Below, piece by piece: positions 2,916 through 20,597 of a stretch of DNA of 20,752 nt. Origin of the DNA: a virus. Location: positions 1-20,752 of the IMG/VR virus record IMGVR_UViG_3300032282_002562; one strand, written 5' to 3'. The notes under the pieces were generated by a model. That model was not told the DNA's origin. It ran no database searches and was given only the letters and a program-made list of their open reading frames with translations. Numbering within the stretch: the stretch's first letter is position 1; each line of letters starts with the position of its first letter. The position numbers were made by a program, and so were the translations under genes.

Positions 2916-2930
2916 TTATATCTCCAAAGT

Positions 2931-2951
2931 GGGGAGAATTATATTCTCCCC
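2931..2951 (-). other. Perfect 9-bp inverted repeat in the 19-20 spacer
   Basis: The arms 2931-2939 (GGGGAGAAT) and 2943-2951 (ATTCTCCCC) are exact inverted copies separated by three bases. In the minus-strand transcript this folds to a stem of four G:C pairs at the base and a tight loop. It lies between the gene 19 stop and the gene 20 start, ending about five bases before the gene 20 ribosome site GGAG. No U-run follows in the transcript, so a standard intrinsic terminator is not supported. It could be a processing site, an mRNA stabiliser for the tail-tube transcript, or a brake on gene 20 translation. Confidence 0.7.
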
Positions 2952-2976
2952 TATTACATCATTTAATTTTTTATTT

Positions 2977-3591
2977 TTAGCCTGGACCAAGTGGACCATC
3001 CACAACAGTATCTCCACCATAAACATTAACACCGCCAGCGCTCTTAGAAGAAGATTCAACGCCAGGAGTCCAGTAATCGTATGAAAATGATACTGGGAAC
3101 GTTTCAATATTATTAGTTGTATCCCAATCAAGAGCGATACCACCAATTTCAGTTGGGAAAGCTCCAATAATATTGTAAGATCTAATTACAGAACCATCCT
3201 TAGAATATTGAATAACAGACAAGTCTGACTTGTAATTTTCAGAAGAAACATTTGGATCACGAACATTCGATACCAAGCGATTCATTGCATTAGACCATTT
3301 CTCAAACAATGCACGAACAGAAAAATCCTCATCATTCATTACATTAACTTGCCATGCACCAAATTCTCGATCGCCAGCAAGTTTAATTTTACGTCCAAAA
3401 TAAGGAATTTCAAACTGTCCGATAGTCGAAGCAGGAAGTTCAGCAGTTCTGCAAACGAATTCAAATTTCTGAGTTGATGCTGCGTCGATACCAATACCTT
3501 GTGGTGTTGATAAACGAACATTAAAGAGGGATGGTCTGGCACCACCGTATACCAGACCATTTGACTTAAACGTATTAATATTAAATGGCAT
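2977..3591 (-). CDS. gp19: Tail tube protein (gp19)
   Basis: A 204-residue protein; T4 gp19 has 163. It stacks as hexameric rings to make the inner tube of the contractile tail. Recognisable parts are the N-terminal MPFNINTFKSNGLVYGGARP, the segment TAELPASTIGQFEIPYFGRK near residues 50-70, the FEKWSNAMNRL helix near 115-125, and the EIGGIALDWDTTNNIETFPV strand region near 150-170 followed by FSYDYW. The C-terminal 30 residues are Gly/Ser-rich and longer than in T4. ATG at 3591 has AAGGAG eight bases upstream. It follows sheath gene 18, with a late promoter box over the gene 18 stop, so the tube gene can be expressed on its own at a high level. Confidence 0.93.
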   Translation of the reverse strand: MPFNINTFKSNGLVYGGARPSLFNVRLSTPQGIGIDAASTQKFEFVCRTAELPASTIGQFEIPYFGRKIKLAGDREFGAWQVNVMNDEDFSVRALFEKWSNAMNRLVSNVRDPNVSSENYKSDLSVIQYSKDGSVIRSYNIIGAFPTEIGGIALDWDTTNNIETFPVSFSYDYWTPGVESSSKSAGGVNVYGGDTVVDGPLGPG

Positions 3592-3619
3592 CTTTGTTAC
3601 TCCTTTTGAGTCTTTATTC

Positions 3620-3627
3620 TATTTATT
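3620..3627 (-). promoter_or_regulatory. Late promoter box before gene 19 (AATAAATA)
   Basis: The minus strand reads TTTTAATAAATAGAATA, a one-base variant of the T4 late -10 element TATAAATA. It overlaps the stop codon of gene 18 and lies about 30 bases before the gene 19 start. The same layout is repeated before gene 18, which supports a functional role. In T4, such boxes are read by host RNA polymerase carrying gp55 and gp33 with the sliding clamp. Confidence 0.6.
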
Positions 3628-5623
3628 AAAATTTGCCAACAACTTCGGAGAACTGAACACCAGTAGCAACAGCTACGAAATTCAACTGAATAAAGTTGAT
3701 AGAACGAGCTGGTTTAATATAGATATCACCAACAAACTGGTTGCTGTCGATAACCTGAGGAGTATTATTAGTTTCATCGCATACTACCAAAAAGTCAGTA
3801 ATACCACGGCGACCTTGAATATTTCTCAGATATGGAGTAACAAGATTTTTAAATTGAGATCTTGTGAAAGCATCATTGAACTCGAAGAGAGAATATTTTG
3901 CAGCAGTAGCAATAGCCTTTTCAAGAACAATAAACAAACGACGAACGTTGATACGATCAAATGCCGATGGTTTAGTTTGAAGGGTCTTATCGCCATAAAG
4001 AACAGTTCCCTGACCTGGAAATGTTACAACTGGATTAATATTTTTGGAATAAAGAACATCACGTTCTGCTTTATTTGGATTATAAGCAAGCTTAACGATA
4101 TTCTTAATTTGACCGCGATTGAACCCAGCTGGTGACCACCAAGCATCATTTGTCTGATCAGTGCGAACACAAAGTCCAGCAATATCACCGTTTAATGGAA
4201 TCCAACGATAAACATCATTGTAACGATCATACTGATACTTATACCCGCTGTCCATTACTGCATAAGAAGTGCTACGAAGAGCATTTCTCCAGCTAACAAG
4301 ACCATCTGACTGTGTGCCAAATGCATTTAATGTAACGCCTTTATCTGGAGAAATAAGAGCAACACAATCTTTACGAGTTTCGCAGATGTTATCAATAATG
4401 TAATTAGCGAGTTGGAAGTTTATTGTAGAACCTCCAAGATCGCCACCAAGAGGACGACCCTGAAGAATAAGAGAAACATCAACATCTTCGGCGGAAGCAA
4501 ATAAATTATAAGCTTCAGCTACAGCGCCAAAATTATATGTTGATGTTTCGTCATATCCATCAACACCTAATGTGAACATAATATCTGCTGGAGCAGTAGT
4601 TGTAGAAGTAGCAACATTCATTGCATTAGCTGATGAAGCATTACTTCTATCATTAGCCCACCAAATATAAGCTGAATTTTGATTTATTACATCTTTATAG
4701 TAATTGCTAGTGTTATCTTTTGTTTTAGAATCTGTTGCTCTTGAAAGGCCAGTATAAGCCTCAAGAATAGTTCCTGGCATTCCAGTAAAACTACCACCAT
4801 CATCAACTACAACAATATGAACTTCATCTTTAGCAGATGTATTGCCATTAGCAGCAACATAATCAGATGTACCTGGAGCATTACCAACTACATTAATAAA
4901 TTCCCAATTTCTAACAATATTAGTAGAAGAATAGTCTGTGTGTAATCTATAAGGTTCTGTAAACAAATAAACAGCATTAGCGCCAACAGTAAACATATTT
5001 GCAATCTGCAGATATTGTTGGCCAATTGTACTATTACCAACCAATAATTTGTCGCCAATAGCAAAATTAGAAATAGAAGTTAAATCTAAAGTATTAGCTG
5101 TTTTTTGACCAATTTTAAATCCTAAAGAGTTAGTTAAAGTAACATTTGATTGGTAAGAAGTTGGGTTATCGCAAACAGCAACTCTTAAAGAATTACCAAG
5201 AGCTCCTGGGTATTTGGCGATATAAAGAGCGCCAGATTCAAAAGTTCCATCTTTTAACTGATAATCTGTTTCATTTTTTACAATGCAGCTAGCAGTGTTA
5301 GTAATTGATCCACCATCGGCGATACCAACAGCTGAATATGTAATTCCAGAAGAATCAAAAGTTGTATTTGCAGCACGAGAAATATAAAGAGAATTACCAT
5401 AAGAAAGGAAGTTAGCAGCAGTAAACCATGTTTCTGCATTAAAGCTGGTTGGTTTACCAAATCTTTTTATAAGGCTATTTTCTGTATCTACAAGAATTCT
5501 TTCGCCGATTGGACCCCAACGAAAAACACCAGCAATGGCGCCAACAGAAGTTGCAACAGCAGGAACAACTGTTGTTAGGTCGATCTCGGAAACATTTACA
5601 CCTGGGCTTAATTGGAATGCCAT
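3626..5623 (-). CDS. gp18: Contractile tail sheath protein (gp18)
   Basis: A 665-residue protein; T4 gp18 has 659. It forms the helical sheath that contracts to drive the tube into the cell. The N-terminus FQLSPGVNVSEIDLTTVVPA is typical of the family. The conserved C-terminal core is clear: WWSPAGFNRGQIKNIVKLAY near 490-510, INPVVTFPGQGTVLYGDKTL near 530-550, INVRRLFIVLEKAIATAAKY near 560-580, and a final strand set ending FVAVATGVQFSEVVGKF. The middle domain (about 100-420) is the variable, surface-exposed region. ATG at 5623 has AAGGAG seven bases upstream. It is followed by tube gene 19 after a short gap and preceded by its own late promoter box. Confidence 0.96.
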   Translation of the reverse strand: MAFQLSPGVNVSEIDLTTVVPAVATSVGAIAGVFRWGPIGERILVDTENSLIKRFGKPTSFNAETWFTAANFLSYGNSLYISRAANTTFDSSGITYSAVGIADGGSITNTASCIVKNETDYQLKDGTFESGALYIAKYPGALGNSLRVAVCDNPTSYQSNVTLTNSLGFKIGQKTANTLDLTSISNFAIGDKLLVGNSTIGQQYLQIANMFTVGANAVYLFTEPYRLHTDYSSTNIVRNWEFINVVGNAPGTSDYVAANGNTSAKDEVHIVVVDDGGSFTGMPGTILEAYTGLSRATDSKTKDNTSNYYKDVINQNSAYIWWANDRSNASSANAMNVATSTTTAPADIMFTLGVDGYDETSTYNFGAVAEAYNLFASAEDVDVSLILQGRPLGGDLGGSTINFQLANYIIDNICETRKDCVALISPDKGVTLNAFGTQSDGLVSWRNALRSTSYAVMDSGYKYQYDRYNDVYRWIPLNGDIAGLCVRTDQTNDAWWSPAGFNRGQIKNIVKLAYNPNKAERDVLYSKNINPVVTFPGQGTVLYGDKTLQTKPSAFDRINVRRLFIVLEKAIATAAKYSLFEFNDAFTRSQFKNLVTPYLRNIQGRRGITDFLVVCDETNNTPQVIDSNQFVGDIYIKPARSINFIQLNFVAVATGVQFSEVVGKF

Positions 5624-5665
5624 ATTAATTCTCCTTTTTGTGGAATATATTAAAGTATTTTATTT

Positions 5666-5673
5666 TATTTATT
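5666..5673 (-). promoter_or_regulatory. Late promoter box before gene 18 (AATAAATA)
   Basis: The minus strand reads TTTTAATAAATAAAATAAAA across the end of gene 17. The box is AATAAATA, one base off the T4 late consensus, and it overlaps the gene 17 stop codon. It lies about 45 bases before the gene 18 ATG. The surrounding bases closely match the box before gene 19. Strong late transcription of the sheath gene fits its high copy number in the virion. Confidence 0.6.
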
Positions 5674-7321
5674 AAAAGTCTTCCTTTACATTCCACATCC
5701 AACTGTCAGGCACAAATTTCTCTAAAGGTTCACTATCAAAATTATTACCCCTACCATCATCAAAAAAGCCAAAAGGAGACATATCTTGTTCCATATCTTC
5801 TTCAGTTTTTTCCCTCAATGACATAAGGGTGTTAATATTCGTATAGTCTTTAAAATATTGTTGCTCAGATAACCAAGCAAATAATACCAAACACATAACC
5901 AAATCGTCATGTTTACCAGACTCAGCCTCAAAGGAATTACCTCTTTTCGAGAAAGTGGATAATTCATTAATTGTATTAAAATCATTAATAATAAGTTGGT
6001 TCTGTTCTATTAATAATTTAAGAATGGAACAACCAATAGATTTGACTATTTTAGTTGTTCTAATACCCTTATCCACATTAGTTCCACCAAATCCACCAGT
6101 TATTCGTTTTCCGGAACGTCCAGCGTTTTCAGTAAACAATACATTCTCATATCCAAAATCATAATGTAAAGAGTGAGAAACCTGTTCACCAATGTCATTA
6201 ACTTCGACTAAAACAGAGGAATTATTATATGCTTTGGCAACTCTATGAATAACATCGGCATAATCAACTGGTGAAATAGAATTATTGCGATACATACAAG
6301 CTTGTTGGTATGGCATTTTTGTTACATCTAGTAACTGGAAAGCTGAATAGTCAAGTCCTTTACCACGGGAAACGTCGCAGACCATAAGATAAACATGCCC
6401 TTCTGTTGGGGCATAATACTGTGTCAATCCATCTCTATCAACTATAGATGGTTGGTGGACTAATTCTTTAAGTTTCCAACCTGCAATAAGTGTTCCGGAA
6501 GAACCAAGGAATTCGCAATTATATTCCTGCTCAAATTTTTCAGTATCAAAGTTCATAGCAGCTAATGTGTCTTGACGCCACCCTTCATTTCTTCCAGGAA
6601 CATCTTGCCAGTTAACTTTAATATATTGATACTGATTTCTTTTTTCATTGGCGTTTAACCATATACTGTAAAAATGGTTTAATCCATTTGGCGTAGACAC
6701 AAGAATAATTTTTGATTCATTACCAGAAGAAATCGTAGGATAAACTGAGGTAAAAAACTCATCCCAATTTTCAATGAACGCCGCTTCGTCAATAAACAAA
6801 AGGTTGATGGAATAACCACGAATAGCATCAGTTGATGTAGCAGCGGCTATAACACGGCTATTATTTTCAAGCTCAAACGAACCTTTATTCCATTCTTTAA
6901 CACCCTGTTGTAACCATTTAGGTAGGTGCTGATAAGCAAGCTGAATACGACCAAGAATTTCTCTGGCCGTATCGCCTTTATTAGCAAGGAGCGCGACTGT
7001 TTTATCAGCATGGAATATAATATACCAAAGAATAAAAGCGCAGGTTGTTGTTGACTTACCAGCCTGTCTGGCAGTTGTTATAATATTAAAACGATTAGCA
7101 GCAAATGATCTTAACATAGTTTTTTGATAATCATAAAGTTTGAAATTAATCAAACCTTCATTTATGCTAATTATTTTCATATATGTTTCGGTAAAATATA
7201 CTGGATCTTGAGAGCATTTAATATACTCTTGAACAAGATCTGGAGTCCATTCAATAGATTGATTAGACTTTTTAAGTAGTATATTACCTTTATAACCTTT
7301 TAAATTATCTATCTCGTTCAA
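5672..7321 (-). CDS. gp17: Terminase large subunit, DNA packaging motor (gp17)
   Basis: A 549-residue protein; T4 gp17 has 610, and the difference is mainly a shorter N-terminus. The ATPase domain has Walker A ARQAGKST at 84-91 and Walker B LLFIDEAAF at 174-182 with catalytic E179, plus an ST-P coupling motif at 209-211. The RNase H-like nuclease domain has acidic residues D316 (VCDVSRGKGLDY), E373 (LVEVND) and D472-D473 (KHDDLVM), which align with the T4 triad D401, E458 and D542. It cuts concatemeric DNA and pumps it into the prohead through the portal. The start is TTG at 7321, just after the gene 16 stop. No ATG is available nearby, the frame closes at TGA only four codons upstream, and the ribosome site is weak. 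Confidence 0.96.
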   Translation of the reverse strand: MNEIDNLKGYKGNILLKKSNQSIEWTPDLVQEYIKCSQDPVYFTETYMKIISINEGLINFKLYDYQKTMLRSFAANRFNIITTARQAGKSTTTCAFILWYIIFHADKTVALLANKGDTAREILGRIQLAYQHLPKWLQQGVKEWNKGSFELENNSRVIAAATSTDAIRGYSINLLFIDEAAFIENWDEFFTSVYPTISSGNESKIILVSTPNGLNHFYSIWLNANEKRNQYQYIKVNWQDVPGRNEGWRQDTLAAMNFDTEKFEQEYNCEFLGSSGTLIAGWKLKELVHQPSIVDRDGLTQYYAPTEGHVYLMVCDVSRGKGLDYSAFQLLDVTKMPYQQACMYRNNSISPVDYADVIHRVAKAYNNSSVLVEVNDIGEQVSHSLHYDFGYENVLFTENAGRSGKRITGGFGGTNVDKGIRTTKIVKSIGCSILKLLIEQNQLIINDFNTINELSTFSKRGNSFEAESGKHDDLVMCLVLFAWLSEQQYFKDYTNINTLMSLREKTEEDMEQDMSPFGFFDDGRGNNFDSEPLEKFVPDSWMWNVKEDF

Positions 7322-7322
7322 A

Positions 7323-7736
7323 TTATTTTCTCATATCAGATATAACTTTTTGCAACTCAGCTGTTGATCCAACAAATAAATTGTTAGTAACATTTTGTGC
7401 CTTTTCATTCATTGGTGAATCGATTGCTTGTATTTGTCTAATTTTAGATTGTAATTCTAATAATTCTTTATTAGCATTTACTACAGAATCCATTAATTTA
7501 CCAAGAACTTCATATGCTCTTGGACTTTGTGAACTTTCTGCTATTTCAGATAACTTATAAATCGCCTCAGTTCCATTTTCAATAACAGAAACAATATGCG
7601 ATCTGGCTGATTCAAAATCAGCTCCAGCACTATCATTGTGAGCATCAGCAATTATTTTTTTAACCGAATCTTGCGCAGCGATTGGCGTCAGCCCTAAAGC
7701 TTTGCCAATCGGATCATTATTATTTTCTTGACTCAT
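7323..7736 (-). CDS. gp16: Terminase small subunit (gp16)
   Basis: A 137-residue, mostly helical protein; T4 gp16 has 164. The segment from about residue 50 to 110 (SHIVSVIENGTEAIYKLSEI and following) fits the long coiled-coil core of the T4-type small terminase. It binds DNA and regulates gp17 ATPase and nuclease action at the start of packaging. The start ATG overlaps the gene 15 stop as ATGA, and gene 17 starts one base after its stop, so 15, 16 and 17 are translationally linked. The identification rests on position, length and helical content, because small terminases diverge fast, but the order 15-16-17 makes it secure. Confidence 0.88.
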   Translation of the reverse strand: MSQENNNDPIGKALGLTPIAAQDSVKKIIADAHNDSAGADFESARSHIVSVIENGTEAIYKLSEIAESSQSPRAYEVLGKLMDSVVNANKELLELQSKIRQIQAIDSPMNEKAQNVTNNLFVGSTAELQKVISDMRK

Positions 7737-8575
7737 TGTAACTCATCTTCATTAAATATTTGAGTGATAAACCCATAATCGTCATTGACATTTATTTCTC
7801 TATAAGGTATAGTATTACTAATGTTACTTGTAGGTTGGCCTCCTACAGTTAATCCAGGTTGAACAGTAACTCTTTCTGAAATAGCTGTAACACCAACTGC
7901 ATCAGCAAGTTTTCCATCAGCGACTTCCGGAATATAAAAATTAGTTTCAACGAATTTAATAACACCAGCTTTTCTTACTGGTCCATATATATAGCCTTTT
8001 AAAATAAGATCTAATGTCCAAATAATAGCTCTACGATTTTTGAAATCGCCGTCATAATTATCACTATAAGAAATATTATTAAGTATAATAGGAATATCCA
8101 TATTAATTTCCATATCTGGAATTAACTTAACAGAAGTTGTCCAGTCTGGCGTAAAGTAAGGTAAAATCTGTTCAATTATTTTTGTACCATCTTCGGCGTT
8201 TTTGGCGTAAATATAAACTTTGAAATCAAAATTATATGGAACAGGATTATATTGATAATTCATTTTATTGTTATCTGCGTTTTTAACAGAAGATTTACCA
8301 ATAGTGTTTAATTTTCTTGACCCATCATATTTAATTTGCCCCATCTCAAATGAAATCATTGGCAAAGTAAGTGTTGCTGACTGCCTAGCAATAGCTGGAT
8401 CTTGAATAACTCTGGCTAACATTTTATCTTTGGGACCATATGTAACAGGAATACTATTTAAAGCAGTTTGATTGCCAGAACTATCTGATTTAGTAATTTT
8501 AATATCGTTAAACAAAGTACCAACAAGGATAACATATTTGCGAATAGTTTGAAAATAAAATGTATGTCCGAAAAT
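7733..8575 (-). CDS. gp15: Tail sheath stabiliser and tail terminator (gp15), non-AUG start
   Basis: The protein caps the finished tail and joins it to the neck. Conserved parts are the N-terminal TIRKYVILVGTLFNDIKI, the VPYNFDFKVYIYAKN strand near the middle, and IIEQILPYFTPDW, which matches the T4 gp15 phrase EQILPYFQPHF. The first ordinary start codon in frame is TTG at 8515, but the family N-terminus extends beyond it: codons from 8575 read (I)FGHTFYFQTIRKY, matching T4 MFGYFYNSSFRRY. There is no ATG, GTG or TTG there. The codon at the matching position is ATT at 8575-8573, with GGAGG six bases before it. From this start the product is 280 residues (T4: 272). The coordinates assume the ATT start. 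Confidence 0.87.
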   Translation of the reverse strand: MFGHTFYFQTIRKYVILVGTLFNDIKITKSDSSGNQTALNSIPVTYGPKDKMLARVIQDPAIARQSATLTLPMISFEMGQIKYDGSRKLNTIGKSSVKNADNNKMNYQYNPVPYNFDFKVYIYAKNAEDGTKIIEQILPYFTPDWTTSVKLIPDMEINMDIPIILNNISYSDNYDGDFKNRRAIIWTLDLILKGYIYGPVRKAGVIKFVETNFYIPEVADGKLADAVGVTAISERVTVQPGLTVGGQPTSNISNTIPYREINVNDDYGFITQIFNEDELQ

Positions 8576-8581
8576 GTTACA

Positions 8582-8586
8582 CCTCC
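8582..8586 (-). promoter_or_regulatory. Strong ribosome site placed for an ATT start of gene 15
   Basis: The minus strand reads AATGGAGGTGTAACATTTTC. GGAGG is a full Shine-Dalgarno core, and six bases later comes ATT, the codon that aligns with the initiator Met of T4 gp15. No ATG, GTG or TTG with an open gene 15 frame lies at usable spacing: the GTG just after the site is followed by a stop. The next in-frame candidate, TTG at 8515, is more than 60 bases away. Confidence 0.7.
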
Positions 8587-8608
8587 ATTATTTGTAAATA
8601 AGTATACA

Positions 8609-9331
8609 TTATATCATTCCTTCGCTGAATGGATCAATAGTTGTAAAGTCAATAAAGTTATCTGACTCTTTTTGTATTTCTGCATTATCGGCAGATGGCA
8701 TTAAATTTTCCATACTTGAATTTTCAAAAACAATATAATTACCATCTTCTGTTAAAATATAATTACCATCTTGATCTTTTAAAGCCCAATCCATTTGGTT
8801 GGTATCGAAATGAGTTTGTAATGAATCAATTTCAGGCACACCCGTAATAAATTTTTCATTGCTATATTCAAAATTCTCACAAGTAAGTTCCCATGTTTGT
8901 AGTCCACCCATTTGATAAAACATTTCAAATTTAGAAACAGATTTAATCTGAAAACATTTTTGATTTAATGGGAAAAATATAATATCGCCTTCGTTTGGCC
9001 TAATTTGATTTGTTATGGTTGCAACATCTTCATTAAATCTTCTTTGGGCGACAGAGAATGTAACTTGATCTCTTATTTCAACACCAAATTTAGACATGAA
9101 GTTACCATCGCCAGAAAATCCATCAACAGATTTAATGTATAATTCTAACGGTATTGCTAATTCATAACTTGATTGGTCATCAGCGCCATAAACAGAATCG
9201 TAGTTGTTTAGTTTACGGGGAACGTAGTACATATCTTCGCCATAAATGCGAATAGCTTCAATAATCAAATTCTCAATAAGAATTTGTTCTTGTGATGATT
9301 TAAAATTATTAAAGAAAAAGTTGGTTGAAAT
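8609..9331 (-). CDS. gp14: Neck protein gp14, with a disrupted or non-AUG 5' end
   Basis: gp14 forms the neck collar with gp13 and seals the filled head for tail joining. Clear family segments are IIEAIRIYGEDMYYVPRKLN, then SKFGVEIRDQVTFSVAQRRF, PNEGDIIFFPLNQKCFQIK and FYQMGGLQTWELTCENFEYS, all paralleling T4 gp14. The first usual start codon is TTG at 9268, but the family sequence clearly extends further: the frame stays open to 9352 and reads ISTNFFFNNFKSSQEQILIE, matching T4 NPYVNFNHYKNSQILAD. No ATG or GTG exists there. Either ATT at 9331 is used, or the true N-terminus is the 20-codon frame starting at ATG 9395, separated by a one-base shift at a run of six G. The joined product would be 261 residues, close to T4's 256. 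Confidence 0.88.
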   Translation of the reverse strand: MSTNFFFNNFKSSQEQILIENLIIEAIRIYGEDMYYVPRKLNNYDSVYGADDQSSYELAIPLELYIKSVDGFSGDGNFMSKFGVEIRDQVTFSVAQRRFNEDVATITNQIRPNEGDIIFFPLNQKCFQIKSVSKFEMFYQMGGLQTWELTCENFEYSNEKFITGVPEIDSLQTHFDTNQMDWALKDQDGNYILTEDGNYIVFENSSMENLMPSADNAEIQKESDNFIDFTTIDPFSEGMI

Positions 9332-9332
9332 C

Positions 9333-9395
9333 TTAGCCCCCCTGCGCAGAAGCTAATTCTGCCTTATACTGATAATTTATGTTTACATTTATCAT
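9333..9395 (-). pseudogene. Out-of-frame 5' part of gene 14 (20 codons)
   Basis: ATG at 9395-9393 opens a 20-codon frame, MINVNINYQYKAELASAQGG, that stops at TAA 9335-9333. The frame ends at a run of six G (9342-9337 on the minus strand). With one G fewer, it reads straight into gene 14 as ...ELASAQGAKISTNFFFNNF. The peptide fills the space where T4 gp14 has about 24 residues before its first conserved block. It is labelled as a broken gene piece, but it could be a homopolymer error in the sequence, a programmed +1 frameshift, or a short leader peptide. I see no clear ribosome site before this ATG. Confidence 0.55.
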
Positions 9396-9432
9396 ATTGT
9401 TAAAAAAATATTTAGTAAAAAAGTATAGTGCG

Positions 9433-10173
9433 TCAGCCAATAAAATCCGTTATTGGTAAGCTAAAGCTTGTAATCATTTCTTTTTCAAGTGCTGATCTTT
9501 CAGCTGTGGCATCATTATAAATTTTCTCACCATTAAACTTAATACCGCCTGGTAATTGCATACCTGTAAACTTAGTAAGATTAGAACCCCACTGCTGTTT
9601 AATTAAACAGGTAGCATAATTTTGAATCCAACGTTCAGAATATGCCTTTGAATAAACTTCGGGGTCAACAATCTGATAAGCTTCAAGAATAAGAAAATCT
9701 CCCTCATTAATAATTTTCCAATCCATATCAATATAACATTTATTAATTATACGATTATATCTCAATGGTTGTTGACCGACTAACATCTGTTCAAGAAACT
9801 GAACATGTTGCATAGCCATATAATATGGAACCATTGAAACAGATGTGAGGGTGTAAAGATCGTTCAAAGCAATCTGATAACGAATGTTGAATAGATTGTT
9901 TGTATTGAGAGCTTGACCAATAGGGAATAGATTAACAACACCAATAATATTATCTGGCATTGTTATATAACGGTTGGTTTTATCCGTCGCTGAAATTTGA
10001 TATTTGTAGTATACCTTTTCGGCACCATCAAAGTGGTAATCCCAATAATAGCTAAAAGCTTCTGTTACGCGATCTTCAACCTGATCGTCATCGACGTTAA
10101 TCTCAATAACAGGCTTACCTAACTTACGAAGGCAATATTCTTTAAATTCGTCTCTAGTTGTTATTGCAGCCAT
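9433..10173 (-). CDS. gp13: Neck protein (gp13)
   Basis: A 246-residue protein from the chosen start; T4 gp13 has 309. It works with gp14 at the head-tail connector after packaging. The N-terminus MAAITTRDEFKEYCLRKLGK, followed by PVIEINVDDDQVEDRVTEAF and YYWDYHFDG, is characteristic of marine T4-like gp13. Later parts include VVNLFPIGQ and LRYNRIINKCYIDMDW. The frame also contains TTG six bases upstream (10179), but the ribosome site AGAGG is eight bases before ATG 10173 and only two before the TTG, so ATG 10173 is preferred. A perfect late promoter box lies about 20 bases upstream. Confidence 0.93.
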   Translation of the reverse strand: MAAITTRDEFKEYCLRKLGKPVIEINVDDDQVEDRVTEAFSYYWDYHFDGAEKVYYKYQISATDKTNRYITMPDNIIGVVNLFPIGQALNTNNLFNIRYQIALNDLYTLTSVSMVPYYMAMQHVQFLEQMLVGQQPLRYNRIINKCYIDMDWKIINEGDFLILEAYQIVDPEVYSKAYSERWIQNYATCLIKQQWGSNLTKFTGMQLPGGIKFNGEKIYNDATAERSALEKEMITSFSLPITDFIG

Positions 10174-10193
10174 TGGCAAATCCTCTTTTCATT

Positions 10194-10213: not shown

Positions 10214-10444
10214 CTAATTAATTACGATTGTGGAAGTATCTTTTTCAATATGCATATCCCCTTCGCATGTAATATTCCATTGGTCGCCTTCCCTTTCACT
10301 GACACAAGGAACATTTATCTTAATATGTTTTACCAAATATTCTTTTCTATCAGGAAGCTCGCCCTCAAAAACCCTCCATACATGTTCCAAAGTTCCTCTA
10401 CCAGGATGCCCTCTAGTCTGGTTAAATCTTATTGAATATTTCAT
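10214..10444 (-). CDS. Small conserved phage protein of unknown function
   Basis: A 76-residue soluble protein beginning MKYSIRFNQTRGHPGRGTLE, then HVWRVFEGELPDRKEYLVKH and a β-rich second half containing GDQWNITCEGDMHI. The start ATG overlaps the stop of the oxygenase gene upstream as ATGA. The motif RFNQTRG...HVWRVFEG is one I associate with short proteins found near gene 13 in marine T4-like phages, but no function is known to me. It has no signal peptide or membrane segment. It closes the five-gene coupled run, and the gene 13 late promoter follows. Confidence 0.75.
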   Translation of the reverse strand: MKYSIRFNQTRGHPGRGTLEHVWRVFEGELPDRKEYLVKHIKINVPCVSEREGDQWNITCEGDMHIEKDTSTIVIN

Positions 10445-11109
10445 ATAATTTCAGCTGGAGATTGGAAAGTTTGCATAGATTGATTATTAAAAGTATTATG
10501 AACAGCGCCCATGGGGGCTACACCAATATTGATATGGATAAATCTAAAAGGTTCATCAGAGCCATTTTTAGTAAACGAATGTGGTAGCCAAGAATTTGAT
10601 AAAATCAATGTTCCAGGGTTTGGCTCAAAAACATGTTCATTAAAAGAAGTATAATCCATATTTTTTCTGGAAAAATCCTCTGGTAAATTGTTTATTACCT
10701 TTGATTGTCTGGGATCATGAAATATGACTTTGGAACAATCTTTGGGGCAATCAAGAAAATAAAATCCAACAATCTGGGCAAGATGCCCATGGACATGTTG
10801 ATCTTGCCCAGAATACTTATGATGCTCCTGACACCATATAGCCTGAAACACAGTATTAAACATGTTCATATTATAACCCTGATCATAAAGGATTTTCCAT
10901 GCAGCGTTAATAACATATTTGGAAAAATCTTTTAATCTCATATCATGATTAAAAGGTTCAGTATTTCTTGCAGGATATAAGTCGTGAATATTTTCTTGAA
11001 TTATTTTGTTTCTTTGAATATATTCATAAGAAACTGTTTTAGCAGTTTCTAAAAATTCTAATTTTTCTGTTTTGTAAATTAAAGTTTGGAATGGAGATAT
11101 AATTTCCAT
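10441..11109 (-). CDS. 2OG-Fe(II) oxygenase family protein
   Basis: A 222-residue protein with the pattern of the 2-oxoglutarate and Fe(II)-dependent oxygenases often found near phage tail genes (Pfam 2OG-FeII_Oxy_5 type). Visible signature: QHVHGHLAQIVGFYFLDCP, with H105-x-H107 as the probable first metal ligands; an aspartate-containing strand VIFHDPR at 128-134; then NPGTLILSNSWLPHSF with distal ligand H177; and FRFIHINI with R189 as the likely 2-oxoglutarate binder. The family oxidises a substrate (often a peptide side chain) while converting 2-oxoglutarate to succinate and CO2. The substrate is not shown by the sequence; nearby fibre genes make virion proteins plausible. It overlaps both neighbours by 1-4 bases. 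Confidence 0.8.
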   Translation of the reverse strand: MEIISPFQTLIYKTEKLEFLETAKTVSYEYIQRNKIIQENIHDLYPARNTEPFNHDMRLKDFSKYVINAAWKILYDQGYNMNMFNTVFQAIWCQEHHKYSGQDQHVHGHLAQIVGFYFLDCPKDCSKVIFHDPRQSKVINNLPEDFSRKNMDYTSFNEHVFEPNPGTLILSNSWLPHSFTKNGSDEPFRFIHINIGVAPMGAVHNTFNNQSMQTFQSPAEII

Positions 11110-11858
11110 TATCCTCTTCCCTTATATTTGTAGGGACATTCCATTGTGTATTCTTTTTTTGACCAAAAATGCCTTCTGTAATACTGTCTTGCCTTAGAGG
11201 GAAAACTAAATGCGCTCATATCAGATTCTTGTATTGTCGCTTTATCACATTCAGCTGTAAATTTTTCTCTTTTGTAAGGCAAAACATGTAATAAAGGAGT
11301 TCCAACTCTAATAATAAATTCACATTCTTTTAATGGAGAAAAAACAAAATTTACAGTACCAAAACCTTTGTCATAATCAACAATTCCTGGATAAATAAAA
11401 ATCTTATCACTAAAATTATAATGTAAATATGAAGGTAAAATATAAGCAGAATATCCTGGTTTAGTTTGGATATACCATGGAATTGGTACTTTATATACAA
11501 CCTTTTTTACATTATCGCTTGTTGCGATCGTTTTAGCAAAAGAAGAATCCATCATACCAGGTTGTAATATTCTTTGGTCTGCTGGGTTGTTTGGATTATT
11601 ACTTAAATTTTCTAATTTACAAATAACTCCTGCTTTATTAGCTTTAATATGTATGTCGCAATGAGCAGAAATAATATAACCAGCATCATAAAAATCCGTT
11701 AACCCTGGGCATCTATTTAAATTTTTATTTTTTGATAATTCTCTTTGCCATTCTGAATCAATTTTTTTAGCACATTCTACAGGAGATGTTATTGCAAAAT
11801 TTCCAAACAATGACTTAAAGGAAATTGTTGGAGTTTTTTTACGAAACCATGAAATCAT
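11109..11858 (-). CDS. Paralogue B of a tandem pair, domain of unknown function (DUF6065-like)
   Basis: A 249-residue protein related to the gene just upstream. Shared features in order: a Cys-Pro or Cys-Met-Pro segment followed by GYII (here NRCPGLTDFYDAGYIISAHC), a central IPWYIQTKPGYSAYILPSYL strand, PGIVDYDKGFGTVNFVFSPL, and RVGTPLLHVLPYKRE near the end. The C-terminus is basic and Tyr-rich, ending YKYKGRG. No catalytic motif is recognised. The overall pattern matches what I recall of DUF6065, a family of unknown function; this name is from memory. Starts and stops overlap neighbouring oxygenase and paralogue genes (ATGA at 11855-11858), so the products are probably made together. Confidence 0.7.
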   Translation of the reverse strand: MISWFRKKTPTISFKSLFGNFAITSPVECAKKIDSEWQRELSKNKNLNRCPGLTDFYDAGYIISAHCDIHIKANKAGVICKLENLSNNPNNPADQRILQPGMMDSSFAKTIATSDNVKKVVYKVPIPWYIQTKPGYSAYILPSYLHYNFSDKIFIYPGIVDYDKGFGTVNFVFSPLKECEFIIRVGTPLLHVLPYKREKFTAECDKATIQESDMSAFSFPSKARQYYRRHFWSKKEYTMECPYKYKGRG

Positions 11859-12571
11859 TTTATAGATCCTCTCAATTCATTAGTATAAACATGTCGACGA
11901 CCGTTTTGAGAGTTTTGAATTTTAATTATTTTTTCTTTTTCTTTATCAGTCATTTTTCTTGGTTTAGCAATTTTTTCAGTATCAGATCGTTTAATAGGAA
12001 TAACAGTAACAAGAGGGGTTCCTGCCTCAACCAAACCATCAAAATCATTAAGATGCCAGATCGCAGGAAAATTAATTTCTTTTGGATAACTATCTGTCTC
12101 AACTAATCCAGATAAACATGTAAATCTTGGTTCAATTCTATTGATTGGTGGAATGAATAATGTTGAATATCCAGGAGCGGTTTTAATAACCCAACGATTA
12201 ATAAATTTTATTGCCGATCTAGGATATGTTGGTGAAGTTTTATTTCCTAATTGTTCAAGACCATGAAATTCAACAAGAGGTCCATATGGATTTTTAGAAG
12301 CGTCAATAAGTTTACCATCTTTACTTGTTCTAATATTAACATCGCCCCATAAAGGTATAATATAACCAAGCGACATAGAATCAAGTAATGGCATACATTT
12401 TTTGGCTGTCAATCCTTTTGCGCCAAATTGATCTTTGTTTTCCATAAATTGTGGAATTTTTTTAAACCATTCTGGCATCATTTTATATGCAGGAACTGGT
12501 TCTGGTATAACACCAAAATCATCAGGTAAACAATAAAATTCCATAATATCAGATTTAAATAATTTAATCAT
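11855..12571 (-). CDS. Paralogue A of a tandem pair, domain of unknown function (DUF6065-like)
   Basis: A 238-residue protein. It starts MIKLFKSDIMEFYCLPDDFG, then VPAYKMMPEWFKKIPQF, LTAKKCMPLLDSMSLGYIIP, NRWVIKTAPGYSTLFIPPIN, LSGLVETDSYPKEINFPAIW and VEAGTPLVTVIPIKRS. This is the standard layout I associate with DUF6065 (FYC-PEDFG, CPP-LDAM--GYIIP, TPPGYS-LF-PP), and it keeps that pattern better than its neighbour, which looks like a faster-evolving copy. Function unknown; the β-rich character and position suggest a partner of the oxygenases or a small-molecule or sugar-binding role, but this is conjecture. The start overlaps the stop of the upstream P4H-like gene as ATGA. Confidence 0.72.
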   Translation of the reverse strand: MIKLFKSDIMEFYCLPDDFGVIPEPVPAYKMMPEWFKKIPQFMENKDQFGAKGLTAKKCMPLLDSMSLGYIIPLWGDVNIRTSKDGKLIDASKNPYGPLVEFHGLEQLGNKTSPTYPRSAIKFINRWVIKTAPGYSTLFIPPINRIEPRFTCLSGLVETDSYPKEINFPAIWHLNDFDGLVEAGTPLVTVIPIKRSDTEKIAKPRKMTDKEKEKIIKIQNSQNGRRHVYTNELRGSIK

Positions 12572-13161
12572 TTATATTTTTCGCCAAGAGCCCATGTTAC
12601 TAAAGTAATACGTTCTCCGGAAGTAACCTTTTCAACTTTATGTGGCAAATAAGAATAAAAGAAAACAATATCACCAATTTTTGGTTGTAATTTTGTTGCT
12701 CTTTTATTTTCTCCACCATTTTCATTAATTAATAAAGCGCCGCCTTTATAATTATCACTATCAGTTAACATAATACTTATTGAAAGTTTTCTAAACAATC
12801 CGCCAGGTCTTGGTTTGTTTTCAACATCAACATGCCAATCATAATGACCATCAACATTATATTTGGAGTATTGAAACCCATCAAATCTAGAAAAATCCAT
12901 TTGATACTTGTCGTGATTTACTTGTAATAAAATATCATGAAGCCTTTCAAACATCCATTTGTTTTCTTCAAGGGGTTCAATCCAAGTAATATCTGTATCT
13001 CTAACATTTAAATCTACGTTTTTTGGACCACCAATAGAACCTTTTTGGAATTCAGCTAATTCACCAGCCTTTATAATATGTTCGCATTCTTCTGGGGTAA
13101 ACCCACCTCTCCAAACTATTACTGGTTCATATGGTGGTGAAAATTTATCAATATTTCTCAT
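12568..13161 (-). CDS. Prolyl-4-hydroxylase-like 2OG-Fe(II) oxygenase
   Basis: A 197-residue protein with a complete P4H-type double-stranded β-helix core. Iron ligands are H110 and D112 (YDWHVDV) and H174 (LPHKV); R184 (GERITLVTWALG) is the 2-oxoglutarate binder. Upstream elements FTPEECEHIIKAG (21-33) and FDGFQYSKYNVDGHYDWH, and downstream LSISIMLTDSDNYKGGALLI, match the PKHD-type / PiuC-like hydroxylases. It likely hydroxylates a protein side chain in the infected cell. The ATG at 13161 has AAGGA at good spacing. It directly follows the Tyr/Pro-rich appendage gene, making that protein a candidate substrate. All catalytic residues are present. Confidence 0.88.
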   Translation of the reverse strand: MRNIDKFSPPYEPVIVWRGGFTPEECEHIIKAGELAEFQKGSIGGPKNVDLNVRDTDITWIEPLEENKWMFERLHDILLQVNHDKYQMDFSRFDGFQYSKYNVDGHYDWHVDVENKPRPGGLFRKLSISIMLTDSDNYKGGALLINENGGENKRATKLQPKIGDIVFFYSYLPHKVEKVTSGERITLVTWALGEKYK

Positions 13162-13184: not shown

Positions 13185-14084
13185 TTAAACATTTTTAATA
13201 GTTATATATCCTCCTGGGGGAACTGATACTGATGTGCCTCCGGAAATGTAAGCTACTGTAGTTGATGTACATGAAACGGTTGGTGCTGTTGCGCAAGCAG
13301 AACCGCCTGGAAATGTAACACCCAAAACATTTGATGGCGATGAAGAAGAGCCTAGAACATATGGGTTATAATTTGGATTTCCTGGTACAAGAGTTCCGGG
13401 AGTATACGCAGCTGGAACATAATTTCCTGGAACATTGTAAGGAGTGCTAGGAGTATATGATGCTGGAACATAATTTCCTGGAACATAAACTAAATTTCCT
13501 GGTGTATATGAACAAGGTGTATATGAGGCTGGACTAGCAGGAGAACCGCCGCTAACAGTTATTGTTGTATAATTAACAACATATATATTATTACCTGGAC
13601 TAGGTGTGAACATATCAGTATTATAATAGCTAGCATAATATCCAGAACAAGCTGCTGGAGCGGAGCTGTAATTCGTACCACCATTATGTGCAGTATAACC
13701 ACACCAGTATGTAGTATATTGATCAACATAATACGCCGAAGTTGCTGGTGATGCAGGCTGTGCAGGAGTATATACAGCTGGCGAATAATAACCAGAATTA
13801 TAATATGAATATGAATTATTATATGCTGGTGTGTATACTGCAGGATTATAAGCAACATATGAATTATTATATGCTGGTGCATATGTTGGGGAGTTATAAT
13901 ACTGATTAGACCCAGCAACATTACCGCCAGAGGCATAATTACCAGGAGAACCTTTACCGCTTATATAAACAGTGGTTTTTCCATATGGCGCTAGATAATT
14001 ACCAGGAGCATTGAATGTTGTTGTTGCTTGAACACCAACATTTGTTTTCTCTTCAAATAAAGTTTGACTGGTAAGTTTTTTCAT
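13185..14084 (-). CDS. Tyr/Pro-rich repeat appendage (tail fibre-like) protein
   Basis: A 299-residue low-complexity protein. Residues 20-50 (TTFNAPGNYLAPYGKTTVYI and SGKGSPGNY) resemble the N-terminal modules of some phage fibre-associated proteins. Two blocks, about 68-110 and 188-241, are built from Tyr-x-Pro units (YTPA, YNPA, YSPA, YVPG), about 13 in all. A middle section has aromatic and Cys residues (C128, C146), and the C-terminal 45 residues (FPGG...CATAPTVSC...VSVPPGGYITI) look like a β-rich cap with C264 and C272. It has no signal peptide. Composition suggests an extended, surface-exposed shaft. Only its role as a virion appendage is inferred, from its place between fibre genes and oxygenases. 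Confidence 0.7.
   Translation of the reverse strand: MKKLTSQTLFEEKTNVGVQATTTFNAPGNYLAPYGKTTVYISGKGSPGNYASGGNVAGSNQYYNSPTYAPAYNNSYVAYNPAVYTPAYNNSYSYYNSGYYSPAVYTPAQPASPATSAYYVDQYTTYWCGYTAHNGGTNYSSAPAACSGYYASYYNTDMFTPSPGNNIYVVNYTTITVSGGSPASPASYTPCSYTPGNLVYVPGNYVPASYTPSTPYNVPGNYVPAAYTPGTLVPGNPNYNPYVLGSSSSPSNVLGVTFPGGSACATAPTVSCTSTTVAYISGGTSVSVPPGGYITIKNV
13390..13510 (-). repeat. DNA repeats coding the Tyr-x-Pro shaft
   Basis: Within the Tyr/Pro-rich gene, the + strand unit GCTGGAACATAATTTCCTGG occurs twice (near 13411 and 13463). It is preceded each time by GGAGTATA and followed by AACAT, with related shorter copies nearby. A second set, GAATTATTATATGCTGGTG, recurs near 13813 and 13861. These nearly identical short repeats could change copy number by slippage or recombination, altering shaft length. 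Confidence 0.65.
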
Positions 14085-14093
14085 TTAAAAATC

Positions 14094-15677
14094 TCAAGAG
14101 GCATTAATTATAGCCAGTGAACCATATACAACATTATTTATAATAAAAAATGTCCATACATCTGTCGCAGCATTAGTAGTTGTTCTTGGTGGAACAATAC
14201 CACCTGCCCATTTAGGTCCGGACATACCAGCAGAAGTATTAGAAGCCCAAGTTAAACTATAACCAGCGCCTGTATTATAAACTTGAGCTGAGAATGTAAA
14301 TACACCATTATTCGATGTAACAGCTGTTGGTGGGTTGGTAAAAGTGATTGTTGAAGAAGCACCCATATTAACTAAGAAGTGAGTAGCGCCATCACCAGTG
14401 TTTAAATCAACAACAGTTGTAGAAGAAGCCACGGTAACAACGCGAGTAGCTTCATTGGAAATAACTGCTCCGTTGAATGTAATAGTATTACTAAATGTTT
14501 GAGTGTTCGTCCAAGTATACTGAGCAGATGTATTGGTGTTAACAGTTGACCAATATGGCGATCCAGTTGTACCATTAGATGTTAACAACTGTCCAGCAGA
14601 TCCTGCTCCACCATTGGCATATATTGGAAGCCCAGAAACAGTTACTCTACTTGTATTAGCAACAAAAGAAGTACCAACTGTATAAGCGGCAGCATTAACA
14701 GTATTTGCTAAAATAGAAGTTGAAAAAGTAATTGTATTTTGGAATGTTTGAGTGTTGGACCAAGTATACTGAGAAGCTACGTTAGTACCTGCAGCTGCAG
14801 CTGCCCAGTATACGTTACCAGCGCCATTAGATGTTAAAACATAGCCAGCTGTTCCTTGTGAACCTGTCGAGTCAATAATCTGAGCGCCAGAATTTACTAT
14901 TAATTTACCACTAGAAAGTATTTGAACATTACTTGAAAACGTATGAACATTGGTCCATGCATACTGAGCAGCTACGTTAACGCCAGATACAGTTGACCAA
15001 TAAGGCGAACCAGTTGAACCGTTAGATGTTAATACTTGACCAGATGTACCAGTAGAACCATTAGCTGAAAATGGTATAGTCGATAATGTTAATTGTGATG
15101 AGTTTGCTATAAAGTTAGTACCAACAGTATAAGAAGCAGCATTAACCGTACCAGTAATAAAAGAACCAGTAGAGTTAGCTATAAATCCATTGGAGTTTAA
15201 TGTTGTTGTATTGGCAACAAAAATTGACCCGACTGTATAAGAAGCAGCATTAACTGCACCATTAACATACGATCCAGTAGAATTTGCGATAAATCCATTG
15301 GAGTTTAATGTTGTTGTGTTGGCGACAAAAATCGAACCAATAGTATAGGAAGATGCGTTAATAACACCACCATAAACACCAGTGGTATTAACGGTTACGC
15401 CTGATGTTGTAATTGATAAGGCATTAACTGTCCCAGTAGTAAATATACCAGAAGCATTAGCCAAAACAACTGAAGCGATATTGGCGGAACTTGTCGCATA
15501 AACAGTAGCGACGTTGGCGACGCCAGTAGTAGTAAAAGCAGTGGCGTTTACCAACCCTGTAGAGTAAACACCAGAATTGTTTGCCACAAAACTATTACCA
15601 GTAATGGTAGTAGAATTGGCAATAAAAGCTGTGTTTACTGTAAGAGAGTTTTTTACTACAAAATTGCTGTCGGCCAT
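14094..15677 (-). CDS. Tail fibre or adhesin with 36-residue repeats
   Basis: A 527-residue Asn/Ser/Thr-rich protein. The first half is made of repeats of the type VNAASYTVGSIFVANTTTLN plus SNGFIANSTGSYVNGA; three consecutive units are spaced 36 residues apart. The second half has three copies of a module GQVLTSNGSTGSPYWSTV followed by a Tyr/Trp-rich AQYTWTNTQTF. The C-terminal 110 residues form a distinct domain (FTFSAQVYN, GPKWAGGIVPP, DVWTFFIIN) shared with the 170-residue protein at 18209-18721. Such repeats are common in trimeric β-rich fibre shafts of marine T4-like phages. ATG 15677 has AGGGG upstream, and an exact late promoter box lies about 30 bases before it. Confidence 0.82.
   Translation of the reverse strand: MADSNFVVKNSLTVNTAFIANSTTITGNSFVANNSGVYSTGLVNATAFTTTGVANVATVYATSSANIASVVLANASGIFTTGTVNALSITTSGVTVNTTGVYGGVINASSYTIGSIFVANTTTLNSNGFIANSTGSYVNGAVNAASYTVGSIFVANTTTLNSNGFIANSTGSFITGTVNAASYTVGTNFIANSSQLTLSTIPFSANGSTGTSGQVLTSNGSTGSPYWSTVSGVNVAAQYAWTNVHTFSSNVQILSSGKLIVNSGAQIIDSTGSQGTAGYVLTSNGAGNVYWAAAAAGTNVASQYTWSNTQTFQNTITFSTSILANTVNAAAYTVGTSFVANTSRVTVSGLPIYANGGAGSAGQLLTSNGTTGSPYWSTVNTNTSAQYTWTNTQTFSNTITFNGAVISNEATRVVTVASSTTVVDLNTGDGATHFLVNMGASSTITFTNPPTAVTSNNGVFTFSAQVYNTGAGYSLTWASNTSAGMSGPKWAGGIVPPRTTTNAATDVWTFFIINNVVYGSLAIINAS
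14135..14142 (-). promoter_or_regulatory. T4-type late promoter TATAAATA before the Tyr/Pro-rich gene
   Basis: The minus strand reads TTATAAATAATGT within the last codons of the 527-residue fibre gene, an exact match to the late -10 element. It lies about 50 bases before the ATG at 14084. Because it is inside coding sequence, it could be chance in AT-rich DNA, but the spacing suits a promoter for the Tyr/Pro-rich protein and the oxygenase run. Confidence 0.5.
15181..15360 (-). repeat. 108-bp tandem repeats in the fibre gene
   Basis: The + strand segment starting ATAAATCCATTGGAGTTTAA at 15181 recurs at 15289 with few changes, an offset of 108 bases or 36 codons. A further diverged copy extends in the 5' direction of the gene. 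The repeats encode the fibre shaft unit and are similar enough at DNA level to recombine. Confidence 0.75.
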
Positions 15678-18741: not shown

Positions 18742-18749
18742 TATTTATT
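18742..18749 (-). promoter_or_regulatory. Late promoter box (AATAAATA) before the fibre block
   Basis: The minus strand reads CATCTAATAAATAATAATAA. The box AATAAATA overlaps the stop codon of the methyltransferase gene and lies about 20 bases before the ATG at 18721. This is the same stop-codon overlap seen before genes 18 and 19. Confidence 0.55.
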
Positions 18750-19278
18750 AGATGCTTATCCTCGATGGTTTTACTGCTTTCATAACAAAAAATAATTCTT
18801 CATCGGTTTCTTTTACATAAACATCATCAAAATCTGCCTTATATAAAGAACGATAGTCGGTCATCTGACTAACACCAGTTTGCTTTGTATATTCAGTTTG
18901 TTTTAGAAACACTAAACTATCAGATTGAATAACTCTTGTATGCCCTGGATCACCCCATGCCCATTGAGATTTATAAGAAGGACATTTTGCGAATATTTTT
19001 CCCTCTGGCTTTAGTATTCTCCAAAACTCACTAAACTGATTGAAGAAAAATTTATAATCTCCCTGCCTACCAGTATGTTCCAAAACATCATATGCATGGA
19101 TTTCATCAAACTCATTATCCTCAAATGGATAAGGTAAAACACAAAGATCATGAACAACGTCAGGCTTGTGACATTCCTCAATATCTAATGTTACCAAATT
19201 ATCCCAAGCTTCGAATCCCTTCGAAAAGAGAACTTTTTTTCTTGCAGCCCCACAACCAATTAATAATTCTTTTCTCAT
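18748..19278 (-). CDS. Class I SAM-dependent methyltransferase
   Basis: A 176-residue protein with a compact Rossmann methyltransferase core. Motif I is LLIGCG at 5-10, followed by an acidic strand end LDIE (31-34), a VVHDL segment with D44, and motif IV-like FDEIHAYDVLEHTG at 57-70. The VLEH phrase, RILKPEGKIFAKCP at 87-100 and the general spacing match the Methyltransf_11 type. The family transfers a methyl group from S-adenosylmethionine; the substrate cannot be told. Phages use such enzymes for nucleotides, lipids, sugars or proteins; here it lies between a 2OG oxygenase and fibre genes, so modification of a virion component is possible. AAGGTG is five bases before the ATG. Confidence 0.85.
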   Translation of the reverse strand: MRKELLIGCGAARKKVLFSKGFEAWDNLVTLDIEECHKPDVVHDLCVLPYPFEDNEFDEIHAYDVLEHTGRQGDYKFFFNQFSEFWRILKPEGKIFAKCPSYKSQWAWGDPGHTRVIQSDSLVFLKQTEYTKQTGVSQMTDYRSLYKADFDDVYVKETDEELFFVMKAVKPSRISI

Positions 19279-19354: not shown

Positions 19355-19936
19355 TTATCTCATGAGGCTCATTTGGTTTAAAGATTGAGTTCTGAGCTCC
19401 CAATCAAACTTATTTATCTTGTAACCAAACATCCACAAAACACGAGAAGTGTTTCCTTCTACGGTAGATACCGAGTGAACGACGTCCGATGGTAGATAGC
19501 AGTGTAAGTCGCCGACACTAAGCTTAATTGGAAGACCCCCAACTTGCAACAATCCACCCGAATCGGCTGCTCTCGTCAAAATGTTGCAGCGTAATACATG
19601 AAGCTTACCCCCATTTTCCATGGGGTCTTTGTGGGCGTATACATCCCCGCCAGGATAAGTACAGCTAACAACAACTCCGTCTTTACCACCTCCCTCAACA
19701 CTTTTCTCGAGATCATGGAGACGAAGTCGATCTGTTATCTTTGAGAAAATAGAATGAACAATTTCAGGATAAACGAACCTGTCCCCATACAGTCTAGTAG
19801 TTAGTCTACCTTCGTACCCCCTAAGTCCACGACTGATCCCTTTATCAAGATACCCCAAAGGGATACCCTCATCAACAAATTGATTAAGCTCGTGTATTTC
19901 TTCTGGAGATAAAAACTCTCTTACAATAATTAGCAT
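19355..19936 (-). CDS. 2OG-Fe(II) oxygenase family protein
   Basis: A 193-residue protein with the double-stranded β-helix signature. The FLSPEEIHELNQFV opening (8-21) is typical of the family. Iron ligands are H102 and D104 (YAHKDP) and H154 (DVVHSV); R165 (SRVLWMFGYKI) is the likely 2-oxoglutarate binder. LRCNILTRAADSGGLLQVGG lies between, as expected. It is the third such enzyme in the window and is not an obvious recent copy of the other two. The gene is GC-richer than its TusA neighbour (29 of 60 in row 19501-19560), suggesting a different origin. No clear ribosome site is seen before ATG 19936. The substrate is unknown. Confidence 0.82.
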   Translation of the reverse strand: MLIIVREFLSPEEIHELNQFVDEGIPLGYLDKGISRGLRGYEGRLTTRLYGDRFVYPEIVHSIFSKITDRLRLHDLEKSVEGGGKDGVVVSCTYPGGDVYAHKDPMENGGKLHVLRCNILTRAADSGGLLQVGGLPIKLSVGDLHCYLPSDVVHSVSTVEGNTSRVLWMFGYKINKFDWELRTQSLNQMSLMR

Positions 19937-19974: not shown

Positions 19975-20199
19975 TCACTTTTTTTCAATATAAACTTTTA
20001 TATGTGTTGAGAAACTATCAATTTTTAATAGGTTATGTTTTGTTGAATTACAATAATCAACAAAATCATAGTGTGCTATAGGATCTGTTGTTATTACAAT
20101 CAAAATGTCACCTATAGTTAATTCGTTTATTTTCTTATGTGCTTTTATAATTGGAATAGGACACATTAAACCTGTTAAATCATATTCGTATGATTTCAA
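19975..20199 (-). CDS. tusA: TusA-family sulfur carrier protein
   Basis: A 74-residue protein with the full TusA/SirA fold pattern: strand YDLTGLMCPIPIIKAHKKIN with the diagnostic CPxP motif (C13-P14-I15-P16), then INELTIGDILIVITTDPIAH, where the G-D and TDP match E. coli TusA, and VDYCNSTKHNLL. C13 is the persulfide-carrying cysteine of the family. TusA proteins relay sulfur for tRNA 2-thiouridine, molybdenum cofactor or sulfur oxidation. The start is TTG at 20199, overlapping the cupin stop as TTGA, so translation is coupled; the only later Met (residue 12) lies inside the active-site motif. No ribosome site is seen. It is very AT-rich (16 of 60 G+C in row 20041-20100). A TusA in a phage structural region is unexpected. 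Confidence 0.85.
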   Translation of the reverse strand: MKSYEYDLTGLMCPIPIIKAHKKINELTIGDILIVITTDPIAHYDFVDYCNSTKHNLLKIDSFSTHIKVYIEKK

Positions 20200-20597
20200 T
20201 TATTTAATACCGGATGTGTCAAATTTATTACTGTTTTAGAAGCTTCCATTAGATCAGAGTCCGGAGGTAATATTTCTCCATCATCATCACGAAGAGCGTG
20301 CACACAAGCTATCAATGCTTCGTCAGTTAATGAAACAAACGAATGTAGTTTATTTGCGCGGGTGACAATTAAGTGTGGAGCCTCAAACTCAACTTCAATT
20401 CCTTCGCAAAATGCGCGAACTGTACCAGAAGCAAGAAGAGTGACATGGTCATAGACGTGCATATGACCTTCCATTTTCTGCCCCTTCTGTGTAAATTTCA
20501 TATATTTTACAAAAACATTCCCAGCAATAGCTACTTGGGAATTTGGAACCCCTTTAATTTCTAAATCGTCTCTATGTTTTGGCTGACTATTGAGCAT
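20196..20597 (-). CDS. Cupin-domain protein
   Basis: A 133-residue single-domain cupin. The first motif is EGHMHVYDHVTLLASGTV, with probable metal ligands H45, H47 and H51, and the family glycine at the end. The second motif includes PHLIVTRANKLHSFVSL, with ligand H85 and a β-strand ending ALIACVHALRD. Cupins bind Fe, Mn or Zn and include dioxygenases, isomerases and simple binding proteins, so the reaction cannot be given. ATG 20597 has a very strong ribosome site (GGAGGA). It overlaps the upstream gene by 11 bases and the TusA gene by 4, forming a coupled run. Confidence 0.8.
   Translation of the reverse strand: MLNSQPKHRDDLEIKGVPNSQVAIAGNVFVKYMKFTQKGQKMEGHMHVYDHVTLLASGTVRAFCEGIEVEFEAPHLIVTRANKLHSFVSLTDEALIACVHALRDDDGEILPPDSDLMEASKTVINLTHPVLNN

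Follow-up and report, generated by a model that had tools for sequence, protein, structure and literature searches.

The window, a 20,752-base IMG/VR virus record analysed over its whole length, encodes close to one end a 74-residue protein that almost certainly belongs to the TusA family and very probably acts as a persulfide carrier. Its gene is accessory cargo in a variable stretch of a T4-superfamily structural cluster and is best read as host-derived. In bacteria, proteins of the TusA type take up cysteine-derived sulfur atoms and deliver them to tRNAs and cofactors. TusA sits at a branch point where sulfur is directed into Fe-S clusters or into tRNA. This branch is known to govern the growth of phage lambda, and a phage with a TusA of its own makes viral steering of it directly testable. 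A 2021 survey of sulfur phages had noted viral TusA before (PMC8190135), and the gene described here, which adjoins a cupin gene, joins a known kind of gene.

Identity and fold

The protein matches the Pfam TusA profile (PF01206) over profile positions 2-70 of 70 with E = 3.2e-18 and 65.8 bits, clearly above the cut-off of 28.6 bits. In NCBIfam, the TusA equivalog PRK00299 (E. coli-type TusA, tRNA 2-thiouridine) ranked first, above YedF and YeeD, with E = 1.7e-12 and 47 bits, which is below the equivalog cut-off of 78 bits. The phage protein has the superfamily fold in common with the TusA-domain proteins YedF, YeeD/TsuB and CstA, but scores far weaker against YedF (23.7 bits, cut-off 79) and YeeD (18.6 bits, cut-off 147.5). 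A PDB search with the phage protein returned chains of E. coli TusA alone (E = 1.7e-6).

An AlphaFold model, calculated from an alignment of 31 sequences, has a pLDDT of 93.7 and a predicted two-layer α/β TusA fold that superposes on TusA of the E. coli IscS-TusA crystal structure (3lvj, chain C) with a TM-score of 0.89 and an rmsd of 1.1. A helix of the predicted model begins at residue 15, with the CPxP cysteine C13 at its start. The initial annotation had recognized TusA from the CPxP motif with C13, the G-D-(I)-L and TDP segments and the length of 74 residues. All of these motifs are present (C13 within C-P-I-P, GDIL at residues 30-33 and TDP at 38-40), and profile, PDB and structure comparisons bear the assignment out. 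C13 is invariant across the 31 aligned relatives, as are G10, P14, P16, K22, G30, D39, P40 and D45.

E. coli TusA (YhhP; 3lvj, 3lvk, 1dcj) and the phage protein are alike in fold, size, the CPxP cysteine and a second cysteine, with C13 and C50 aligned to E. coli Cys19 and Cys56. The E. coli row of this alignment is consistent with the 1dcj stretch from the PDB search. In E. coli, Cys19 receives the persulfide from IscS, and Cys56 is important for client contacts (PMC11302665). The phage protein differs in its sequence (26% identity), its shorter N terminus and its score below the equivalog cut-off. It also carries Ile15 at the position of E. coli Glu21, which pairs with Arg220 of IscS; most alphaproteobacterial relatives have Leu at this position.

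Gene arrangement and phage context

The tusA-like gene lies on the minus strand at positions 19975-20199 (TTG start at 20199, TGA stop at 19975). The coordinates and length first assigned to this reading frame were correct, and the strand, which had not been named, can now be added; the plus strand of this segment is full of stops. No form longer than 74 residues is possible because an in-frame TAA directly precedes the TTG, and the next in-frame ATG would remove the conserved DxxGL. Immediately upstream is the cupin gene (133 residues; 20196-20597, minus strand), whose TGA stop overlaps the TTG in the sequence TTGA (20196-20199, minus strand). The cupin ATG is preceded by a strong Shine-Dalgarno sequence, AGGAGG; none was seen upstream of the tusA TTG. 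Because the start lies within the cupin stop and has no evident Shine-Dalgarno sequence, translation of tusA is probably coupled to that of the cupin. The G+C content of tusA, 24% versus 36%, is the lowest in the contig. Since the gene is A+T-rich and begins with a TTG that no visible Shine-Dalgarno sequence precedes, its expression may be low.

The contig is identified as phage by a T4-superfamily structural block (1152-10179, minus strand), in which the portal, sheath and large terminase were recognized by homology and the other components by position. The nearest relatives of the large terminase, sheath and portal, at ~49-60% identity, come from Sinorhizobium, Stenotrophomonas and Synechococcus (cyanobacterial T4-like) phages. 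A host assignment was dropped, as the three proteins each point to a different host; the carrier is probably a T4-superfamily phage that infects a proteobacterium. Nothing in the data points to the marine setting that had been supposed.

We fetched 80 viral contigs with related terminases, one of them at 100% identity in a record that ends short of the TusA locus. PF01206 was found in none of the 50 related phage records searched, many of which are fragments and some of which do not reach the corresponding region. Across 17 upstream regions, the genes up to position 10179 are mostly conserved, and most of those beyond are missing or scattered. Exceptions beyond this point are a gene of dioxygenase type by appearance (12568-13161), a fibre-like protein with repeats (14094-15677) and a few isolated matches. 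We regard tusA as accessory because it is absent from these 50 relatives and because the region past the neck gene is variable. Both the phage location of the gene and its place outside the T4 core, as originally proposed, are thus upheld.

Upstream of the cupin gene, and overlapping its start, is the 3′ end of an unassigned gene cut by the contig end (20587-20751, minus strand). The next gene 3′ of tusA (19355-19936, minus strand; 193 residues) has no Pfam match and is 2-oxoglutarate/Fe(II) dioxygenase-like by eye (HxD...H...R). It is followed by an accessory SAM-dependent methyltransferase-like gene (18748-19278, minus strand) with a Methyltransf_11 match above the cut-off. Several dioxygenase-like genes, judged by motifs seen by eye, fall within one variable region (10441-13161 and 19355-19936). 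Two adjacent, overlapping genes (11109-11858 and 11855-12571) seem by eye to be related to each other, and a Pro/Tyr/Ser-rich repetitive protein with YTPAxYxx-like repeats (13185-14084) lies beside the fibre-like genes. No tRNA was found in the contig, and no MnmA, Tus partner or further sulfur gene was seen in this 20.7-kb fragment.

It is highly improbable that tusA is bacterial DNA mis-assembled onto a phage contig, or a chance passenger. The gene does lie ~550 bases from the contig end, with the lowest G+C, and the right arm of the contig is mostly without matches among relatives. However, it is on the strand of the phage genes, overlaps a cupin gene that itself overlaps the preceding gene, and has a third-position G+C within the range of phage genes; nor do bacterial tusA relatives adjoin cupins in the annotated loci that we read.

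Cellular and viral relatives

In an unseeded draw of 150 genomes from the phylum of a Methylophaga genome (G051, the genome of L191), 106 contained matches, the best at 44-53% identity. The best scores came from alphaproteobacterial proteins of the 'sulfurtransferase TusA family' (Rhizobium, Dongia, Kiloniella, Rhodobacteraceae), with ~35-50% identity over the matched segments. The named relatives are nearly all alphaproteobacterial, in a search biased by seeding with alphaproteobacterial sequences; several alphaproteobacteria were also among the lowest E-values of an unseeded plasmid search. The phage protein shares with the alphaproteobacterial TusAs a DxxGLxCPxP...TDP...D...C pattern and differs from them in its long branch and in having KH at residues 54-55, where they have GH. 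Trees of 74 columns resolve little, with ~2 changes per site on the phage branch and a biased composition, and the position of the protein shifted between two trees built on almost identical data, from near Rhizobiaceae to near L206. By sequence comparison, alphaproteobacterial TusAs are its nearest cellular kin, though it sits on a long branch of unstable placement. A specific bacterial donor was dropped on account of the differing trees, the long branch and the biased composition. A mixed alignment was rejected as a search query for being too divergent.

We checked 50 genomes that encode a close relative of this TusA, 49 of them alphaproteobacterial by title and one a Methylophaga. Only two contain a DsrC/TusE-family gene above the cut-off and nearly all contain MnmA, one being without a match and one having a weak partial match.

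No close relatives, and no second copy, of the phage TusA were found in viral contigs by sequence searches and a degenerate DNA pattern. Phage-coded TusA is rare, because no PHROG family matches the protein well, a BFVD structure search gave no close structure (best E 0.009, not TusA), and the inspected matches in deposited phage records include no clear phage-coded case. The tusA genes of Acinetobacter phage MD-2021a and of Staphylococcus phage PhiSepi-HH3 (S. epidermidis), in the public records L002 and L004, were set aside, as their lnt-corC-tusA and nrgA, treR neighbourhoods, respectively, read as bacterial chromosome. In unannotated S. aureus wastewater records, the match equals cstA from staphylococcal plasmids in both percent identity and bit score. 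A faecal scaffold (L005) is also among the phage-record matches. A search with a second viral TusA as query also matched contigs of the Salmonella chromosome and some short records that carry no annotation. Among the viral matches, L200, with a cysM-like gene ahead of tusA, looks like bacterial flank.

With alignments of alphaproteobacterial and of viral proteins as queries, TusA was retrieved from a few other IMG/VR viral contigs. In L110 (6007-6548), L111 (5980-6981) and L194-L196 (5989-6532 in L194), tusA is directly followed on its 3′ side by a DsrC-family gene. L193 and L198 duplicate the records of L111 and L110, respectively, and L194, L195 and L196 have identical neighbourhoods. The DsrC assignment is confirmed by Pfam in L110 and L111; that of L194 was recognized by sequence and is nearly identical to that of L110. 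Both C-terminal DsrC cysteines are kept in L110 and L194, and both are lost in L111. Two further records, L197 and L199, reach no further than TusA or slightly beyond it, so the 3′ neighbour falls outside them. In L111 (219,676 bases), a porin (Pfam Porin_4) and, by eye, a PstS-like phosphate-binding protein lie near tusA, at 5043-5897 and 7210-8196.

The DsrC-linked viral TusAs (L110, L111, L194-L197) are likewise phage-coded and have both cysteines, and they are 36-41% identical to the phage protein. In contrast, they have a DsrC partner wherever the record extends past TusA, and their gene surroundings differ from those of the cupin-adjacent gene. No DsrC lies beside the latter in the 20.7-kb contig, its neighbours being the cupin and the dioxygenase-like gene, and no cupin adjoins TusA in the other viral contigs, read by eye. 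In one tree, the phage protein fell outside the group of DsrC-linked proteins, although a topology test did not reject a single clade (p-AU 0.37). The cupin-adjacent gene suggests that viral TusA occurs in two settings, one of them outside the DsrC-linked sulfur phages.

Proposed role during infection

We propose that the phage uses an accessory, host-derived TusA as a persulfide carrier that works with a host cysteine desulfurase and feeds tRNA thiolation, a chain that, as a whole, has about an even chance of being correct. The phage TusA would dock on an IscS-type cysteine desulfurase of the host, where Cys13 would accept sulfane sulfur as a persulfide and then hand it on. Host sulfur flow would thereby shift from Fe-S assembly on IscU towards TusA clients. 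The likeliest client would be MnmA-type 2-thiolation of U34 in tRNA-Lys/Glu/Gln, which would preserve the reading frame and the translation of phage late genes. Docking on IscS is an assumption, because the position of Glu21 is taken by Ile15, and we infer the tRNA step from homology and precedent.

In the known system, IscS donates a persulfide to TusA, which relays it further and competes with IscU (PMC3980101, PMC11302665). Lambda infectivity is lowered by the loss of tusA, tusE or mnmA and raised by the loss of iscU, hscA or hscB (PMC2900299), which has been explained by the thiolation of tRNA-Lys at U34 and by frameshifting in the lambda G/T genes (PMC3980101). The role in tRNA thiolation that the initial annotation had considered is therefore plausible and has a phage precedent, and we give tRNA thiolation as the benefit to the phage slightly less than an even chance. 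TusBCD and TusE are missing from many bacteria that do possess IscS, TusA and MnmA (PMC3980101). In an alphaproteobacterial-type host, the pathway would work without TusE, and the gene content of the 50 genomes with close TusA relatives is in line with such a TusBCD- and TusE-less pathway.

Delivery of sulfur to clients other than tRNA, such as molybdenum cofactor (Moco) or FdhD-type sulfuration, or a general buffering of persulfide, seems rather unlikely. E. coli TusA serves Moco synthesis too (PMC3980101; see also PMC3831636), and the gene of one relative, in Salipiger, has a formate dehydrogenase cluster next to it and the Moco gene glp nearby. Other alphaproteobacterial relatives, however, have no such neighbours, and there is no recognized Moco gene in the contig. 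We consider it quite unlikely that the phage infects a sulfur oxidizer and that its TusA feeds reverse-Dsr or sHdr via DsrE/DsrC, as has been proposed for sulfur phages. Other viral TusAs directly precede a DsrC-family gene, with both C-terminal cysteines in L110 and L194; viral dsrC is known, and the 2021 survey names TusA among the proteins common around phage sulfur genes such as dsrC/tusE and soxYZ (PMC8190135). The oxidation genes of that survey are nevertheless absent from our contig, the phage protein stands apart from the DsrC-linked TusAs in one tree (a single clade is not rejected, p-AU 0.37), and the genomes with its closest cellular relatives mostly lack DsrC. The earlier suggestion of a host sulfur-oxidation route thus finds no support in the contig. 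A decoy that binds the host cysteine desulfurase chiefly to starve Fe-S assembly, without passing sulfur on, is improbable. On IscS, TusA and IscU do have overlapping sites and compete for them (PMC11302665), and IscU loss favours lambda (PMC2900299), but both functional cysteines are kept, and a pure decoy would need neither.

In addition to tRNA thiolation, joint modification of the virion or of nucleotides by TusA and the cupin had been suggested. The two proteins would then make up a persulfide module that is specific to the virus and coupled in translation, and would modify a phage product, either a virion protein or a nucleotide, by thiolation or in another way, or act on a persulfide substrate. 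If true, this would be viral sulfur chemistry of a kind not yet described, and we judge it very improbable. The 4-nt stop/start overlap is the sole evidence we saw for a joint function, and a cupin fold with a His-rich metal-site pattern would be compatible with one. Comparative data lend no support: the synteny survey found no second cupin-tusA pair, a distant cupin relative in L021 occurs without TusA, and the PHROG match of the cupin, itself weak, is to a tail-fibre family ('short tail fiber protein'). No close relatives of the cupin were found in viral contigs, and its Pfam match is below the cut-off. Its structure model, although predicted with moderate confidence (pLDDT 65), has cupins as structural matches, and H45, H47, H51 and H85 are common to the cupin and its relative in L021.
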